64,000 nucleotides of DNA from a virus, in IMG/VR virus record IMGVR_UViG_3300023174_000036, positions 124,001 through 188,000 of that record; one strand, given 5' to 3'. Shown one piece after another: positions 43,983 through 58,094 of the stretch (position 1 is its first letter; every line of letters begins with the position of its first letter). The notes beneath the pieces are model-generated. The model was not told the DNA's origin. It saw nothing but the letters and a program-made list of their open reading frames with translations, and made no database searches. A program made the translations under genes and the position numbers.

Positions 43983-43990
43983 TATTTATC
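43983..43990 (-). promoter_or_regulatory. T4-type late promoter (GATAAATA)
   Basis: GATAAATA on the - strand overlaps the stop codon of the 43986 gene and lies 24 bases before the ATG of the large 42153 gene. It would drive the virion-block operon (42153 down to 36094). Confidence 0.6.
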
Positions 43991-44588
43991 TTTTGACGCT
44001 GCCGCCGCCCAATAGGTTGGCACCCTTCATATCAAGGGCATTTTTAGCAGTACCATCTTTGTTCTTAGGCTGTTTTACTGGTTTGTTCTTGTATACTGCA
44101 CCAACGCCCACATTGGCCGCAGTAGTCATGTTTCCAGGTGCGCTGGCGAATTCTTTTAGGGTTTCACTGACCGGAGCGCCAGTTTCGTGTACTGAAGCTT
44201 TTTTACCTTTGTTTTGCAAACTTCTAGCCACAGCTTCTGCGTGTGATTTGCTACCAAACACCTTCCAAGTTTTACCATCTATTGCAACTGCGTAATTGTT
44301 AGTTTCATGGCCTAATTCGTGTTCCATCTCACGACGTTTGAATTCACGTTTTTCGCGATCCCCAAATCCAGTACGATTGTCATCGTAGTTACGATAGCTT
44401 TCAGCCACACTTTCCTTCTTGGCAGTTTTGGCCGCATCTTTCCATGCTTGTGCTGTGGGCGCTTTAGGACTATCAGCATCTCTACTAGTGCCTGCTTTTT
44501 TACGTTTGTTCACATAGTAGTATAGTCCTTTCTTTTCACTTTCTACTATATCTTTTTTAACACTTTCATCTAATTCATGCATTTTCAT
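43986..44588 (-). CDS. Conserved basic phage protein
   Basis: 200 residues; GGGGAG before the ATG. Motif GLYYYVNKRKKAGTSRDADS (~21-40) then PKAPTAQAWKDAAKTAKKE recurs, from memory, in marine T4-like phages. A small folded module lies at ~95-130 (NYAVAIDGKTWKVFGSKSHA, resembling a SPOR/single-strand-binding-like beta-alpha unit). Basic, Gly-rich C-terminus. Possibly a DNA-associated head protein; not demonstrated. Confidence 0.62.
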   Translation of the reverse strand: MKMHELDESVKKDIVESEKKGLYYYVNKRKKAGTSRDADSPKAPTAQAWKDAAKTAKKESVAESYRNYDDNRTGFGDREKREFKRREMEHELGHETNNYAVAIDGKTWKVFGSKSHAEAVARSLQNKGKKASVHETGAPVSETLKEFASAPGNMTTAANVGVGAVYKNKPVKQPKNKDGTAKNALDMKGANLLGGGSVKR

Positions 44589-44872
44589 AATTTTTTCTCC
44601 CCAGTCATGTATGGTAAACTAAACCATAATTTGAACCATTCAGGAGTTCCTGGTTTAATATTGTTTTTGCGCTGTATCTCACCGTTGTTATCGCCGGTTA
44701 CACTGATGTTGCTGCCTAAGCTAGCACGATACTCGTGTAGTCTTGCTTCACCACCTAGACCACCTAGACCAGCCAGTGCTTTTAATTCGTGTATAGGATC
44801 ATTGGGATCGAGATAACAATCGTCATCTGCACTTTGATTCAAATCCTGTGTAGTGATCCTATATTGTTTCAT
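44585..44872 (-). CDS. Small phage protein of unknown function
   Basis: 95 residues from ATG 44872, overlapping the Dps-like gene stop (ATGA); a longer frame from 44896 lies inside that gene. MKQYRITTQDLNQSADDDCY, a Gly/Leu-rich segment (LAGLGGLGG) and a C-terminal WFKLWFSLPYMTGEKK motif. Unknown function. Confidence 0.6.
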   Translation of the reverse strand: MKQYRITTQDLNQSADDDCYLDPNDPIHELKALAGLGGLGGEARLHEYRASLGSNISVTGDNNGEIQRKNNIKPGTPEWFKLWFSLPYMTGEKKL

Positions 44873-45306
44873 TTTAAACTTGCTCTTAACATCCAACTGT
44901 GTTTCTTATGCGCATCCTGACGATCTGCAAAGAAGTTACTTAGTCCGTGATCACCAGCATCTTCGGCCATGGCAAACACTATCTTGAACATGTTGGCCAT
45001 TTTATCACTATCAGCTAACAGTTCGCGTAACATACTTTGAAAATCTGGAACTGAGTTCTCATCTTCAATCTTGCTCAGCATACTAAATTTGCTGTAACTA
45101 GCAGGCGCATAAATTTGCAAAGCACGTAGTTCTTCTGCAAATTTATCAACTACTCCATACACTTCGTCATATATTCTTTCAAACAACAAATGATGCTGAT
45201 AAAACAACGGCCCTTCGGTATTCCAGTGAAAGTTTTGCGCCTTTAATGCAAATGAATATTCGCTGGCAAATGCTGTTTTTAATGCTAAATGATATTTTTC
45301 GTCCAC
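44869..45306 (-). CDS. dps: Dps-like ferritin
   Basis: 145 residues from GTG 45306 (GGAG upstream), close to Dps length (~150-167). NFHWNTEGPLFYQHHLLFER and IYDEVYGVVDKFAEELRALQ place His27, His39, Glu43, Asp54 and Glu58 at exactly the spacing of the Dps ferroxidase site (His31, His43, Asp47, Asp58, Glu62 in E. coli-type numbering). Dps proteins form 12-subunit shells that oxidise and store iron using peroxide and may bind DNA. The basic N-terminal tail of E. coli Dps is missing. Its place among virion-type genes makes packaging or protection of phage DNA from oxidants conceivable. Confidence 0.85.
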   Translation of the reverse strand: MDEKYHLALKTAFASEYSFALKAQNFHWNTEGPLFYQHHLLFERIYDEVYGVVDKFAEELRALQIYAPASYSKFSMLSKIEDENSVPDFQSMLRELLADSDKMANMFKIVFAMAEDAGDHGLSNFFADRQDAHKKHSWMLRASLK

Positions 45307-45307
45307 T

Positions 45308-46402
45308 TTAAACTCCGTATTTGTTTCGTTTAGGTTTTGCTACAGGACTGACTTTATGAGTAGAATCCAATTCTCGACTCTTCATATCGCCTTTATTTGT
45401 ATCCTTGTAACTAGCACCAACAACCTTATATGCTTGTTTAAGCATGTCTTGTTCTTCTTGTGTATAAGGATGAGTTGTTTTTTGTTTACCAATCCAGCTC
45501 TTGGCCTTCATCTCAATAGGGTCTTTGCCGTTAGCACCAGCCACGGCCATGCCTAATCGATATGCGGTGTAATCACCGCTAACATGCTCGCTATCACCGT
45601 AAGTATTAACACCTCTAGTGGGCTGTTGTTGTCGCTTGGTCATTTTAGCCTGCGATGACTCTAGCATTGCAGTCATTTCTCTAATTTGTTCTGCTAGTTG
45701 AAATGCACGAAGATTTTTCTTTGGTGTATTCTTGTTTACGTCAACTGTGGTGTTTTGTTTTGTAATAATACCAACACCTGCGGCATCTTCTTTGGCTTTA
45801 ACTGCTTTTTTAACTTTTTCTGGATACTGATTTAAATAATATGCAACCACATCAAATATAGGTTTTGCTTCACCATCAACTTCGACGGTCACACTAGGAT
45901 CAATGCCCATGTCTTTATAGAACGCATTACGGTCACCGGTTCTTACAGCCTTACGCAAATCCGTTGCACTTGCCAATCGTTCTGTTGCAACATGCTCAAT
46001 ATTTTTAAATTTATACATACCATGTTCGCTTTCAGCGCCATTGTATTTGACCAATACGTCAGCTAACCATGTTTCATCGGTATATACTTTCAAATGTACA
46101 TTTTCACCATACTTGTCGTAAACACTGGTGGCTAATGTTAGCAAACTTTGTTCAGGAACAACATGACCTGCAACTGGCGGAAATACTGCGGCCATGCATT
46201 GTAATTTAACATCATAGGGTAATGGATCTTTAGGGCCGCTAGTGCTGTCGTTAGTTCCTACATACCAAATTGGATTTTTGCTGGCTGCTTTCCATACACC
46301 TTTGTGACCTTTGTGCGGAGGATTAAAGCGTCCAAATGAAATCCCAATAGTCTTTATACTATTAGTTGGTTGCTCACCTTCAAACATTTCTCTTAACTTC
46401 AT
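45308..46402 (-). CDS. NMNAT/cytidylyltransferase-like nucleotidylyltransferase
   Basis: 364 residues from ATG 46402 (AGGTGG upstream, ATGA overlap); GTG 46411 rejected. N-terminal tag MKLREMFEGEQ, then the HIGH-type motif FGRFNPPHKGHKGVW (~25) and the second motif SATDLRKAVRTGD (~145), as in NMN adenylyltransferases and related enzymes. These transfer a nucleotide from NTP to a phosphorylated substrate such as NMN. The C-terminal ~150 residues are a Lys/Gln-rich extension not found in cellular enzymes. The tag resembles those of neighbouring genes, so the enzyme may be carried in the head. Confidence 0.78.
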   Translation of the reverse strand: MKLREMFEGEQPTNSIKTIGISFGRFNPPHKGHKGVWKAASKNPIWYVGTNDSTSGPKDPLPYDVKLQCMAAVFPPVAGHVVPEQSLLTLATSVYDKYGENVHLKVYTDETWLADVLVKYNGAESEHGMYKFKNIEHVATERLASATDLRKAVRTGDRNAFYKDMGIDPSVTVEVDGEAKPIFDVVAYYLNQYPEKVKKAVKAKEDAAGVGIITKQNTTVDVNKNTPKKNLRAFQLAEQIREMTAMLESSQAKMTKRQQQPTRGVNTYGDSEHVSGDYTAYRLGMAVAGANGKDPIEMKAKSWIGKQKTTHPYTQEEQDMLKQAYKVVGASYKDTNKGDMKSRELDSTHKVSPVAKPKRNKYGV

Positions 46403-47613
46403 GGTACCCACCTTGATAATGTTTCCCCGCTACCGTGTTGAACGTTATCTCGTGGAACAAATTTAGTATGCATATCACCTGCTGAATCGTACTGTACCCA
46501 TCCTTCTGAATTGATAACTTTAATTTCTGGAGGATTCATTTCTAATTGCGATAACAGTTGATTTTTCAAATTCATAATTCGCTTAACATAATTAAACACA
46601 GTAGTAACGCCAGCCGGAACAGCATCTATACGGGATCTAATATTCAACTTCATGCTGTCGGATTTGACCATACCACTTGCACCTGTATCAACCCAAGTTA
46701 TAAAATCATCACCAACATTGGCCAACTGTCCTGATTTGGATTTTTCATTCATGTAACGATATATAATACCTTTGAAGTTTGATACTTTTGGAATAGGTGA
46801 CAAGAACGCATCAATAGTTGCTTTATCTTGTTTGAGATCCATTTCAATTTTATCAATAACTTTGGTATCCATTTTTGGTTGTACTTTGGCATAGTATGGA
46901 CTCAATACAATTAACTCAGGTATTGGATTCATATATGTAGTAAAATCTCTAACTGGTTTTTGTTCACTATCACCAGCACCAAATTTATCAAAGCTACCGT
47001 GTGCGGCAACCATGGCCTGTGCACCTTCCGCAATACGCTGACCCAGTGTAGAGTCGACAGCAATGTGATATTGTGTTTGACTTTTTAAATTAGGATTTAA
47101 TTCATACACACCATCCACTTCTTCTGGGGGTGTTGTAAATAGACCATCGGCATAAAAATAAATTTCTTTACCTTTACGTGGAACTTTGGTAGAAGCTTTG
47201 AAAATCTCATACAAGTGACTAAACTCTGTGGCAAACTGTTGGCGCTCTGCTTGTTTGGCAGGATCGTTGCCAGCATCACCGCTTTTGTTCAAAATAAAAT
47301 TATAAATGCCACGCACACTGGTAAAATCGCTTATATCGCTAGTGCCTGTTCCACCGCGACTCCAACCGTTGTGACCGCATAAGATAAACTGTCCGTCTTT
47401 AGTGTAGCCCCAATAAATTTGCGGTGCTCCGTCCCATTTAAATCTGGTATTTTCTGAACTAGCAGTTCCAGCTTTACGTATATGCTCAAGAGCTTTGATT
47501 ACACCAGCAGTGCCGTGTAAAAAAGTCAAATCTTCTACGTGGTTAAATGCTCTGCCAACTTTTGCTTTGACAGGTTCAACAGCCTCACGTATAAACAATT
47601 CTCTTAGTAACAC
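46399..47613 (-). CDS. Ligase-fold nucleotidyltransferase-like protein (DUF6267 type)
   Basis: 404 residues. N-terminal tag MLLRELFIREAVEP contains IRE|A, a possible prohead-protease site. FKWDGAPQIYWGYTKDG (~residue 56) has the KxDG lysine of DNA/RNA ligases and capping enzymes, and SNFKGIIYRYMNEKSKSG (~275) could be a later motif. From memory this is the phage DUF6267 family. It may adenylylate or join a nucleic acid, but full ligase motifs cannot all be assigned. It is coupled to the NMNAT-like gene. Confidence 0.65.
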   Translation of the reverse strand: MLLRELFIREAVEPVKAKVGRAFNHVEDLTFLHGTAGVIKALEHIRKAGTASSENTRFKWDGAPQIYWGYTKDGQFILCGHNGWSRGGTGTSDISDFTSVRGIYNFILNKSGDAGNDPAKQAERQQFATEFSHLYEIFKASTKVPRKGKEIYFYADGLFTTPPEEVDGVYELNPNLKSQTQYHIAVDSTLGQRIAEGAQAMVAAHGSFDKFGAGDSEQKPVRDFTTYMNPIPELIVLSPYYAKVQPKMDTKVIDKIEMDLKQDKATIDAFLSPIPKVSNFKGIIYRYMNEKSKSGQLANVGDDFITWVDTGASGMVKSDSMKLNIRSRIDAVPAGVTTVFNYVKRIMNLKNQLLSQLEMNPPEIKVINSEGWVQYDSAGDMHTKFVPRDNVQHGSGETLSRWVP

Positions 47614-47615
47614 AA

Positions 47616-47987
47616 TTAGTCCTTGTACTTGCCATCAGCTAGATGTTGTTTAAAGTCTTCTTGCATTTTTTTGCAAATACTAGTAACAGTTTTGTCGTCT
47701 AACGATTCAGGCAGTTCACGTATAGGGAATCGTTTAACATATTGCTGATAGCTACTTACAACTGCTGGCTTAAAAACATCAGGATTTATTGAACGATTGC
47801 TGTTGGCCCTATCAAGGCAGCGGGCAATGCTGGGATAAACATGACGTCGATACACATCATCGTCATGATTCATGAAATGAGTCAAGTCTTCTACAAGGTC
47901 ATAGTCCAGTTCTCTACCCTTTTCAGTAGATTTAACAAAATCTAAATCTTTAAAGAATTTATTTTCTAATAGTTCACGTATACGCAT
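47616..47987 (-). CDS. Small phage protein with N-terminal tag
   Basis: 123 residues from ATG 47987. MRIRELLENKFFKDLDFVKS shares the (R)REL tag of the two genes downstream. The remaining sequence is helical (EDLTHFMNHDDDVYRRHVYP, LDDKTVTSICKKMQEDFKQH). It lies two bases before the ligase-like gene. Function unknown. Confidence 0.65.
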   Translation of the reverse strand: MRIRELLENKFFKDLDFVKSTEKGRELDYDLVEDLTHFMNHDDDVYRRHVYPSIARCLDRANSNRSINPDVFKPAVVSSYQQYVKRFPIRELPESLDDKTVTSICKKMQEDFKQHLADGKYKD

Positions 47988-48045
47988 TATAAAGCCCGGT
48001 TTTAACAAAAATTACATACATGGCGGCAGATGCTCGCCTTTAGAG

Positions 48046-48071: not shown

Positions 48072-48704
48072 TTAGGCTTTCTCGTTTACGACCCGCTCAA
48101 CTTTGGAAATTACGCCGCTAAGATGCATCTTTGCCATGAGCAAATTATTATCACCTGTAATGTAAAAGTAACTGCCGCCCCAGCTATTGTTTCTTAACAG
48201 CTGAATTTTACAAGATTTAGTTAGTTTTATCTTGGAATTATTACTAGCCCATGTGATAAAAGTGCTGTATTCTTGCGAAGTTTTGCCCAGTGTTACCCTG
48301 TAATCGTATTTTATCTTGGGCAAAATAACTGTGTTTTCTTCTAGAGTTGTGCCGGTTGCCGGCTTGCAAATATACTTTACTCGAGATGCATCCAATTTGA
48401 TTAATTTGTCAACATCTTGTTTGTTATTAGTATACACTGTGACCCATGGAGTTTCTACACGTATTTCTATGTTGTCTAACGCAGAAAGCACATGCTCTAA
48501 CTTGATAGCATATTGCAACTCTTCTTCAGTTTTGATAGTCCAACGTTTTCTAGAATACACATCAGTTTCTAATTTTACATTTTTTATGCGGTCAGCAATA
48601 ACATCGCTGGGTGCGTTTCTAAATAAATGAGCGCCAGAAAATACCAATACAATTTTGTACTGGTACTTTCCGTAAAACAGTTTTTTAGTCTGCTTGAACT
48701 GCAT
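48072..48704 (-). CDS. Conserved phage protein of unknown function
   Basis: 210 residues from ATG 48704; the frame extends to a TTG at 48719 with no better site. MQFKQTKKLFYGKYQYKIVL, FSGAHLFRNAPSDVIADRIK and WTIKTEEELQYAIKLEHVLS suggest an alpha/beta protein. It overlaps clpA by 20 bases. From memory, it resembles a T4-like phage protein without known function. Confidence 0.65.
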   Translation of the reverse strand: MQFKQTKKLFYGKYQYKIVLVFSGAHLFRNAPSDVIADRIKNVKLETDVYSRKRWTIKTEEELQYAIKLEHVLSALDNIEIRVETPWVTVYTNNKQDVDKLIKLDASRVKYICKPATGTTLEENTVILPKIKYDYRVTLGKTSQEYSTFITWASNNSKIKLTKSCKIQLLRNNSWGGSYFYITGDNNLLMAKMHLSGVISKVERVVNEKA

Positions 48705-50961
48705 GGTCAGTAGTTTCAATTGCCAACATTGGCGCTTTAGATGTTTTACCTTTAGCTACCAATGCTATTTTATCTTCACTAATAGAGATAGTAAGCCACC
48801 CGCCGTTCTTGAGGTCTCCAAACAACATCATGCGAGCAAGGTCACGTTTAATTTCCTTGTCAATAACACGTTGTAATGGACGAGCACCCATTTTAGGATC
48901 AAAGCCTTTGGCAATAAGCCAGTTGGTAGCCTCGTTATTAATTTTGATACGAATACCTTTTTCTTTAACTTGATCACGCATTTCGTCAATGAACTTGGTA
49001 ACAACTTTGACCATTGTTTCTTTATTGAGTTTGTTGAATGTAATAACTGCATCAAGTCGATTTCGAAACTCTGGAGTAAAAAACTTTTTCAAGTCTTTAT
49101 CGCTGTAGTCTTTACTTTGTGATCCAAATCCAATAGTATTCTTTTCAGCATCCTGCGCACCTGCATTGGTGGTGAGAATCAATACAATGTTACGGCAATC
49201 AGCTTTTTTACCATTCGAACCAGTAATAAAACCGTTATCCATAATTTGCAACAATACTGTGCTGACATCTGGATGTGACTTTTCAACTTCGTCAAACAAC
49301 AAAACAGCATTAGGGTTTTCTTGAATCTGTGTAATCAACAAGCCAGCATTTTCTTCAAAGCCAACATACCCTGGTGGACTACCAATCAGTTTGGAGATGC
49401 TATGCTTCTCTTGGTATTCTGACATGTCAAACCGCAACAGTTTGACACCCAAGTGCTTGGCCAGCGACTTGGCAGTTTCGGTCTTACCGCAACCAGTTGG
49501 CCCCATGAATATAAATGATCCAACAGGTTTGTTTTCACTCTTAAGTCCTGCCTGTGCAACAATGATCTTGTCCACAATTTCTTCCACAGCGGTGTCTTGT
49601 CCAAACACATCTGCGCTGACATTGTCTTGCAATTTGGAAATACTTGCACTTTCAGTTTCAGAAACTTGTTCTTCAGGAATTTGTACCATCTTAGCAAGTT
49701 CGTATTGAATTTCACGTTCGGTAATGATACGCTCGTCTGCAAGTTTGAGATTGAAACGACTACAAGCCAAGTCAATCAAATCAATGGCCTTATCTGGAAG
49801 TTTCTTATCTGTTTGATATTTTACACTTAGCTTGATTGCTGAATGTAATGCATCGTCTTTAATTTTAACATTATGGAATCCTTCATAGTATTTTTTAATA
49901 CCCTTAAGGATCTGTGTAGTAACTTCAATTGTTGGTTCATCAACAGTAATACGTTGGAAACGACGCATCAATGCACGATCCTTTTCAAAGTGCTTGCGAT
50001 ATTCTTCCCATGTTGTACTAGCAACAACTTTGATATTGCCTTTGCTCAATGCAGGTTTCATCATGTTGGCAAGGTCGTTTGCACTGTTACCAGCAGATCC
50101 TGCACCAGAGATCATGTGTGCTTCGTCGATAAACAACACAGTCTTGCCTTTCTTTTGAAGAGCTTTGATAACTGCTTTAAATCTTTCTTCAAAGTCTCCG
50201 CGATATTTAGATCCAGCTAGCATAGCTGAGATATCTAAATTATAAACAGTGTAGTCTTTTAAGAAGTCTGGAACAGCACCCTTGACAATATTGTAGGCTA
50301 GTCCTTCTGCTATGGCAGTCTTACCTACACCCGGATCTCCAACTAAGATAACATTATTTTTATTACGACGACCCATTGCAAGTGCAATATTTTCCAGTTC
50401 GTCAACACGACCAATAACTGGGTCAATTTTATTTTTTTCTACTTGAGCATTTAAGTTTGTAGTAAACGCCTGCAGAGCTTTACTTGGTTGACCGCCTTCT
50501 TGAGGTTGTTCTTCCTCTTCAGGATCATCCACGCTGTTATTCAAGAAGTCAGCAAACTTGTCTCTATCAATGCCAGCTTTTGCAATATAAAAATATGCCC
50601 AACTGCGTTTTTCACCCATCATTGCAACAAACACATCAGTGGGCTCAATGCGCTGGCGTCCGTTGAACAACACTTGTGTAAACGCACGATTCAACACACG
50701 CTCCACGCTTTGTGTTTTCTTAGGCTTGACCACAACATCTTGCACAGTGATTTCACCGCATTTGTTTTTCAAATAATCAGTTAATTCTGATTTCATTGTT
50801 TCAGGCTTGGAACCAAAACTTTGTAAACAACTAACAAACGATTCTTCAGTCAGCATAGCTAGAAAGATATGTTCGATTGTTAAATATTCATGATGCAGTT
50901 TTTTAGCAGTCTCTAATGCTTTTTCAAATACTGCCTGCAAATTATCACTTGGTTCTACCAT
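48685..50961 (-). CDS. clpA: ClpA-type AAA+ unfoldase
   Basis: 758 residues, full ClpA length. N-terminal Clp-N repeats (EKALETAKKLHHEYLTIEHI, AMLTEESF), first AAA+ domain with Walker A GDPGVGKTAIAEGLA (~209) and Walker B VLFIDEAHMISGAGS, second with GPTGCGKTETAKSLA (~487) and LLFDEVEKSHPDV. The IGF tripeptide in NTIGFGSQSKD (~607) is the loop by which ClpA docks on ClpP. The protein can therefore probably recruit host ClpP and redirect degradation; no ClpP gene is in the window. Followed by the deformylase and DnaJ genes upstream in the same operon. Confidence 0.95.
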   Translation of the reverse strand: MVEPSDNLQAVFEKALETAKKLHHEYLTIEHIFLAMLTEESFVSCLQSFGSKPETMKSELTDYLKNKCGEITVQDVVVKPKKTQSVERVLNRAFTQVLFNGRQRIEPTDVFVAMMGEKRSWAYFYIAKAGIDRDKFADFLNNSVDDPEEEEQPQEGGQPSKALQAFTTNLNAQVEKNKIDPVIGRVDELENIALAMGRRNKNNVILVGDPGVGKTAIAEGLAYNIVKGAVPDFLKDYTVYNLDISAMLAGSKYRGDFEERFKAVIKALQKKGKTVLFIDEAHMISGAGSAGNSANDLANMMKPALSKGNIKVVASTTWEEYRKHFEKDRALMRRFQRITVDEPTIEVTTQILKGIKKYYEGFHNVKIKDDALHSAIKLSVKYQTDKKLPDKAIDLIDLACSRFNLKLADERIITEREIQYELAKMVQIPEEQVSETESASISKLQDNVSADVFGQDTAVEEIVDKIIVAQAGLKSENKPVGSFIFMGPTGCGKTETAKSLAKHLGVKLLRFDMSEYQEKHSISKLIGSPPGYVGFEENAGLLITQIQENPNAVLLFDEVEKSHPDVSTVLLQIMDNGFITGSNGKKADCRNIVLILTTNAGAQDAEKNTIGFGSQSKDYSDKDLKKFFTPEFRNRLDAVITFNKLNKETMVKVVTKFIDEMRDQVKEKGIRIKINNEATNWLIAKGFDPKMGARPLQRVIDKEIKRDLARMMLFGDLKNGGWLTISISEDKIALVAKGKTSKAPMLAIETTDHAVQAD

Positions 50962-57347: not shown

Positions 57348-57774
57348 ACAGTTGTGTTACAGTTATTCCTGATCGTTCAAGGAACGTAACACCATCAGTA
57401 CTACGATAACTGTTACGATAGAATACACTGCGAATGCCACTTTGAAATATAAGTTTTGCACAGTCCAAGCATGGGCTATGAGTAACAAACAATACAGCCC
57501 CATCACCAGATTCTGTACTTTTCGCAAGTTTAGCAATAGCATTAGTTTCTGCATGTAACACCTCTGGTTTACTTTTTAATGTAACTGTATCATCACTATG
57601 TTGGATAACGTACTCGCAATCGTTATCCCATCCTGCGGGCATGCCATTATAGCCAATACTGATAATACGATCATCCTTGACCACAATAGCACCAACATGA
57701 AGCCTACGTGCTGAACTAAGTTCAGCAAATCGTTCAGCAACATCCATGTAGGCATTTATGAATTTTTCTTTCAT
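57346..57774 (-). CDS. dCMP deaminase
   Basis: 142 residues. Zinc-binding motifs [14 protein letters not shown] (~residue 73) and [15 protein letters not shown] (~97) are those of deoxycytidylate deaminases. It converts dCMP to dUMP, the substrate of ThyX. It starts in an ATGA overlap with the ferredoxin gene and ends at the shared terminator. T4 has an equivalent (Cd). Confidence 0.93.
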
Positions 57775-58094
57775 TCTTCTAGCAAGTCTAATTTATTAGG
57801 TTTGTTATTCCATTCTTCTGCATCAGGTAGCGCAGGTTTACGTTTAGTAATGGTAGGCCATTTTTTAGCAAGCCGTGTATTAAGCTCAGTCCAAAACACA
57901 ACATCAACAGTTTTATCAGTATCGGGAACAATAGCATCGATCGGGCACTCAGGAACGCACACACCACAGTCAATACATTCGTCTGGATCGATAACAAGAA
58001 AGTTAGGACCTTCTTTAAAACAATCAACAGGACAAACTTCTACACAATCAGTATGTTTGCATTTAATACAATTCTCTAATACCAAATATGTCAT
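57771..58094 (-). CDS. 7Fe-type ferredoxin (FdxA-like)
   Basis: 107 residues. The first ~60 match bacterial seven-iron ferredoxins: [20 protein letters not shown] provides the 3Fe-4S type set and [12 protein letters not shown] the 4Fe-4S set, with [11 protein letters not shown] between. The C-terminus ([20 protein letters not shown]) is of the usual type. It could supply electrons to QueE, ThyX-related flavin chemistry or host enzymes. Coupled to the clamp loader (ATGA). Confidence 0.93.

Follow-up and report, generated by a model that had tools for sequence, protein, structure and literature searches.

A Dps mini-ferritin at a fixed operon position in a lineage of large, uncultured T4-like phages

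Dps, a hollow protein cage in which iron is oxidised and stored so that peroxide does less harm, is usually regarded as a bacterial stress protein, and a gene for such a protein in a large phage genome raises the question of what it does there: whether it handles iron and peroxide in the infected cell, travels in the virion, or acts on DNA. The gene was analysed in a window of 64,000 nucleotides, corresponding to positions 124001-188000 of a 356,312-bp IMG/VR virus record, in which dps is located at record 168.9 kb.

The dps gene and its product

The gene and its ribosome-binding site are as follows.

44869-45306, minus strand: dps, coding sequence of a 145-aa Dps mini-ferritin, GTG start and TGA stop; matched by Pfam, PHROG, PDB and structure searches
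45313-45316, minus strand: GGAG ribosome-binding site of dps, within the final codons of the upstream gene; CGGAG or CGGAA precedes the start in most relatives

The open reading frame at 44869-45306 was confirmed as a genuine gene on the minus strand, with matches far beyond chance, and a plus-strand reading of the same interval was rejected because of stops throughout. The Pfam Ferritin family matched the 145-aa protein at 3.9e-20, the PHROG 3636 profile matched it over nearly its whole length at 4.7e-27, and a search of PDB sequences yielded 46 distinct sequences, nearly all of the Dps type, with 8ff9 (P. aeruginosa PA0962) as the best match (4.9e-27). The GTG start was fixed by the conserved start column and the GGAG ribosome-binding site in relatives. 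In-frame N-terminal extensions, considered as a hidden targeting peptide, were rejected, being unconserved in relatives and preceding the conserved start and ribosome-binding site. No T4-type late promoter (TATAAATA) was found near dps, and three were present in the window against 5.7 expected.

A first AlphaFold model, based on an alignment of close relatives alone, had a pLDDT of 78.7, and a model based on 54 diverse phage and bacterial rows reached a pLDDT of 95.9 and a pTM of 0.90. The latter consists of helices 3-29, 35-62, 71-77 (short), 89-117 and 120-144, namely a four-helix bundle in which the BC loop contains a short helix (71-77) and the fifth helix of ferritins is missing, as in a Dps subunit. 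Modelling covered the monomer, the 12-mer cage being predicted from family and fold. When the model was compared with known structures, the best 50 PDB entries were all dodecameric Dps or Dps-like mini-ferritins (Z 20.1-22.6), and the predicted fold is that of Dps and not the other fold that would have spoken against the original prediction. P. aeruginosa Dps (PaDps; PA0962, PDB 8ff9-8ffd) is alike in fold (Z 22.0, rmsd 1.5 Å over 145 residues) and shares with the phage protein the four iron ligands, the Trp beside the site and the absence of a basic tail; it differs in that identity is 33%, the PaDps tyrosine network is only partly kept in phage Dps, and the phage pore acid is mostly at 128 instead of 124. 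By its sequence and predicted structure, the encoded protein is a bona fide Dps of ordinary anatomy.

Ferroxidase site, three-fold pore and handling of iron

The codons of the ferroxidase site, numbered in the window, are listed below with the corresponding PaDps residues (PMC10002758).

45226-45228, minus strand: H27, ferroxidase ligand (PaDps H37); invariant in 194/194 phage Dps
45190-45192, minus strand: H39, ferroxidase ligand (PaDps H49); invariant in 194/194
45178-45180, minus strand: E43, the fifth residue of the original prediction; variable in the family (G/E/Q/D/K/A)
45145-45147, minus strand: D54, ferroxidase ligand of the partner subunit (PaDps D64); invariant in 194/194
45133-45135, minus strand: E58, ferroxidase ligand of the partner subunit (PaDps E68); invariant in 194/194

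In the crystal structure of PaDps the iron ligands are H37, H49, D64 and E68 (PMC10002758), which fall on phage H27, H39, D54 and E58 with an alignment offset of 10. The Dps-type ligand set, two His of one subunit with Asp and Glu of its partner, is therefore predicted in the phage protein; the four residues were also invariant in the 54-row alignment of phage and bacterial sequences, and W28, adjoining the site, was retained in 193/194 phage Dps. A complete site had originally been proposed from five residues at spacings of 12, 4, 11 and 4, with one conservative Asp-to-Glu change. These residues are H27, H39, E43, D54 and E58, and the spacings and the intact predicted inter-subunit site were borne out, but the fifth position varies (G 106, E 74, Q 7, D 5, K 1 and A 1 across 194 phage Dps) and its counterpart is unlisted among the PaDps iron ligands (PMC10002758). 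Since Gly is found in 106/194, E43 is no fixed part of the ferroxidase site. A site of four ligands that never vary, combined with a fifth position that is free to change, is added by this analysis to what was known.

Because most phage members have Gly at position 43, the kinetics of the ferroxidase could differ, which counts against the reading preferred below. The same Gly (106/194) might suggest that activity was lost and that Dps is now a structural protein, but this is extremely improbable, since the four iron ligands, the adjacent Trp and an acidic pore residue are retained under strong purifying selection, as judged from a dps dN/dS of about 0.06-0.10 (relatives with unsaturated dS). 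In PaDps, iron is bound in the three-fold pore by D134 and Q138 (PMC10002758), matched by phage positions 124 and 128. Among 193 phage sequences with both positions, 145 had N124 with D or E at 128, 47 had D124 and no acid at 128, and a single sequence had two acids (D+E), against about 36 double-acid pairs expected under independence, a contrast inflated by shared ancestry. The pore acid appears to shift between 124 and 128 rather than to be lost, with one acid per subunit.

As the inter-subunit ferroxidase site is intact, iron oxidation and storage are the natural reading of the protein. The phage product is probably an intracellular, peroxide-using Dps ferroxidase cage that shields both the cell under infection and the DNA being replicated. 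Direct support extends to its family and fold, to the invariance of the ligands, to purifying selection, to the fixed place in the operon and to the phage-specific clade. We infer that Dps would be made in the infected cell from the conserved operon and act there rather than in the virion, and that its subunits would assemble into a 12-mer cage with a ferroxidase site at each dimer interface, each site being formed by H27 and H39 of one subunit and D54 and E58 of the partner. Fe(II) would enter the cage via the acidic three-fold pores and be oxidised mainly with H2O2, an oxidant adopted by analogy with PaDps, and the ferric mineral would be stored; both Fenton reactants would be removed while the phage, in a host under stress, replicates its very large genome, which would presumably benefit the phage.

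It is quite unlikely that the protein is mainly an iron bank, one that during infection keeps iron from the host or delivers it to iron enzymes of phage or host. The intact cage anatomy and the presence of a ferredoxin, an Fe-S carrier, a rubrerythrin and a 2OG-Fe(II) oxygenase in the same record would suit such a role, but its chemistry is the same as that of the peroxide-using cage and hard to tell apart by sequence, and the iron capacity of Dps cages is far below that of 24-mer ferritins. The ferredoxin is FdxA-like (Fer4 plus DUF3470; window 57771-58094, minus strand), and the A-type iron-sulphur carrier (L090:18065-18415, minus strand; PF01521, 3.3e-20) belongs to the same phage; alongside dps, the two suggest a wider iron/redox gene set, which together with the rubrerythrin of the record counts in favour of the peroxide-using cage. 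A second ferritin-like match in the record, at 277 kb, was rejected as a Dps, being a stand-alone rubrerythrin-type protein (L002:1207-1656, minus strand, record about 277.2-277.5 kb; PF02915, 3.7e-17). Rubrerythrin was also present in two other large Dps-bearing records (G005, G015); over the 13 records searched, many of them fragments, it was found in 3, and the iron/redox set is thus inconsistently linked, which counts against the peroxide-using cage.

Action on DNA, by non-specific binding or compaction of host or phage DNA or by cleavage as for PaDps in vitro, is improbable. PaDps, the closest solved relative, lacks a basic tail and still cleaves DNA in vitro, but Dps of several organisms are without DNA binding (PMC10002758). 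The phage protein begins at helix A and ends in RASLK, and the basic N- or C-terminal tail that is a feature of the DNA-binding Dps of the E. coli type was absent from its sequence; with a pI of 5.6 (4.9-6.3 across the phage family) and a net charge of -5.9, direct DNA binding through a tail is unlikely. PHROG 3636 is labelled 'DNA binding protein', whereas phage Dps shows no DNA-binding tail.

Distribution and descent

The original remark that Dps is uncommon in phages was right for sequenced isolates, where 13 out of 50,697 phage records had one, but does not apply to aquatic phages that are uncultured: 278 IMG/VR stretches encode relatives, the best 80 of them 74-90% identical, and a wider IMG/VR search gave at least 539 relative-encoding stretches. 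In some 80 IMG/VR loci, dps occupied the same place in the operon. In a sample of 37 loci anchored on ClpA and extending 5.5 kb or more downstream, dps was present in 33 and lacking in 4, and no other ferritin-like gene was found in the records of these four, which are fragments. As a few related phages are without it, dps is not essential in all, which counts against the peroxide-using cage. In two dps-lacking loci (L140 and L166) the upstream nucleotidyltransferase gene directly abuts the gene for a 103-aa protein. Dps was among the best conserved proteins of the operon block (median identity 78% versus 36-57% for most neighbours). From these sequences, dps proves to be a standard gene in a group of uncultured large T4-like lake phages, the lake or freshwater habitat being suggested by the company of the relatives (annotated S-SRM01 from a reservoir) and by recognised metagenome sources.

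A tree of 83 rows placed 56 phage Dps and one actinobacterium-binned contig in a single clade (97/89), from which 23 bacterial rows, a limited sample picked by peptide pattern, were separate; the Dps of isolates (S-SRM01, LAh_8 and BS162P1) took far-off positions on long branches. Recent transfer from a bacterium is disfavoured, the nearest bacterial Dps found in the peptide-pattern sample showing about 43% identity at best, over partial stretches, and lying outside the phage clade. The contig inside the phage clade (L234), binned as an actinobacterial MAG, is probably a phage contig. Within dps, window positions 44951-45100 were 65% identical to L007 versus 90-100% over most of the flanking 8 kb, and have the look of a recombined segment.

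Cyanophage S-SRM01 (Kyanoviridae, Pantevenvirales), a cultured, large T4-like freshwater phage, likewise encodes a Dps, annotated as DNA starvation/stationary phase protection protein, but this differs in its 30.7% identity, its long separate branch and its unrelated neighbours (porin and tail fibre). Dps in a cultured T4-like phage was already known in this way, as was phage Dps in PHROGs, BFVD and GenBank; the fixed place in a large lake-phage lineage and the phage-only clade are added by this analysis. No paper on Dps in this phage lineage was found in the literature searched, and induction of host dps has been reported for YerA41 infection. With dps standard and selected in a widespread uncultured lake-phage lineage, control of peroxide and iron during infection becomes testable phage biology.

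Operon neighbours and the virion question

The genes around dps in the window are the following.

43986-44588, minus strand: neighbour; capsid-targeting-like N-terminus in about half of relatives
44585-44896, minus strand: downstream neighbour (103 aa); start probably at 44872 (MKQYRITTQ), which gives an overlap with the dps stop; adjoins the upstream gene in dps-lacking loci
45308-46411, minus strand: upstream neighbour, HxGH nucleotidyltransferase (NMNAT/cytidylyltransferase-like) with a C-terminal ...NKYGV module; PHROG 3041/395 cytidyltransferase; N-terminus MKLREMFEGE capsid-targeting-like
46399-47613, minus strand: DUF6267 protein with KWDG motif (PF19782, 1.1e-13); N-terminus MLLRELFIRE|A capsid-targeting-like
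47616-48008, minus strand: conserved protein of about 123 aa; N-terminus MRIRELLE capsid-targeting-like; start likely inside the open reading frame
48685-50961, minus strand: ClpA-type ATPase at the upstream end of the conserved block (PHROG 4871, 1.8e-251); anchor for measuring the presence of Dps

In the best 80 loci the order ClpA, 215 aa, 130 aa, DUF6267, nucleotidyltransferase, Dps and 103 aa was largely kept, with homologues of each direct dps neighbour in 79/80. The flanks of dps encode DNA polymerase, DsbA, ClpA, peptide deformylase, DnaJ and proteins of unknown function, the polymerase (family B) and the DsbA-like protein being within the window. The phage is T4-like by its gene complement, with homologues of terminase, sheath, portal, head protease, capsid and gp25 at record 27-101 kb (the first five at 27-85 kb). 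The virion gene block in which dps had originally been placed is borne out only in part: the canonical head and tail genes proved to be 70-140 kb away, but several neighbours do have capsid-targeting-like N-termini.

A T4-type internal protein has an N-terminal targeting peptide that runs up to a head-protease site. The N-terminal peptide of T4 ipII and ipIII is a capsid-targeting sequence (PMC9026906), with MKTYQEFIAEA as the type used for comparison. Such N-termini were sought with a regular expression of our own making, which detects T4 ipII and ipIII and misses T4 ipI and Alt, and is thus non-exhaustive. Of the 398 genes in the record, 13 had the motif, as did 0.4% of shuffled N-termini. 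Among genes lying no more than 1.5 kb from dps, it was found in 132/341 in operon loci and in 48/336 in other phage-Dps loci with differing neighbours, counts that are not independent because the loci are related, and beyond 5 kb in 1/180. Control loci without Dps gave 0/700 genes; as these belong to phages of different types, a fair control is provided only by the fall-off with distance and by the shuffled sequences. Among orthologue sets, the families of the 130-aa protein, the DUF6267 protein, the nucleotidyltransferase and the 200-aa protein often showed motif-like features, and Dps showed none; no match to the motif occurred in 151 phage Dps open reading frames. The N-termini of T4 ipII and ipIII resemble those of the dps neighbours, unlike that of Dps itself. 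With such N-termini on its direct neighbours, the gene block may supply packaged proteins, and dps sits among probable packaged proteins yet without their targeting peptide. This association with capsid-targeted genes is a further addition to what was known.

With 0/151 phage Dps carrying a capsid-targeting N-terminus, an intracellular role is favoured, and the packaging suggested in the original prediction is so far unsupported. The resemblance of the neighbours to packaged head proteins makes a virion role possible and counts against the intracellular cage. A Dps that enters the capsid and leaves it with the DNA, in the manner of T4 internal proteins, to guard packaged DNA or DNA on its way into the cell from peroxide, or to carry iron, is nevertheless unlikely: the enrichment of ipII/ipIII-type N-termini close to dps, fusions of Dps to a module matching an isolate gene annotated as capsid maturation protease, and 'Prohead protease' labels in BFVD argue for it, but the phage Dps start is fixed at helix A, the head genes are located elsewhere in the record, and the targeting peptides of the neighbours are inferred by motif only. 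It is likewise rather unlikely that large T4-like lake phages pack a Dps cage, or co-deliver it with internal head proteins, as a shield of packaged or just-injected DNA against peroxide; such a virion-borne antioxidant cage would be consistent with the recurrence of dps in capsid-targeted gene clusters of divergent phages and with the module fusions. Dps and its capsid-targeted neighbours are clear candidates for virion proteomics.

In the fusions (L277:2446-3291 and L319-L327) the Dps domain follows a module of about 110 aa (KPTEGMASAA...RVAWDLWGGD), which matches a gene annotated as capsid maturation protease in Actinomycetia phage DSL-LC01, and in BFVD Dps-like domains occur in proteins annotated 'Prohead protease'. 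True fusions of Dps to a prohead protease were rejected, the readable IMG/VR fusions being module plus Dps (263-281 aa) with no recognised protease domain. A 333-aa BFVD protein seems too short for Dps, module and full protease, and its annotation may derive from the shared module.

Further gene clusters with capsid-targeting-like N-termini were observed at record 309.8-310.8 kb and 328-335 kb, homologues of the second being near dps in other phages. The C-terminal module of the nucleotidyltransferase (...VSPVAKPKxNKYGV) also occurs as separate small genes with capsid-targeting-like N-termini, three of them in tandem in L133 (L133:8180-9365). The KWDG of the DUF6267 protein (46399-47613, minus strand), judged by eye, recalls the motif I lysine of nucleotidyltransferases and ligases.
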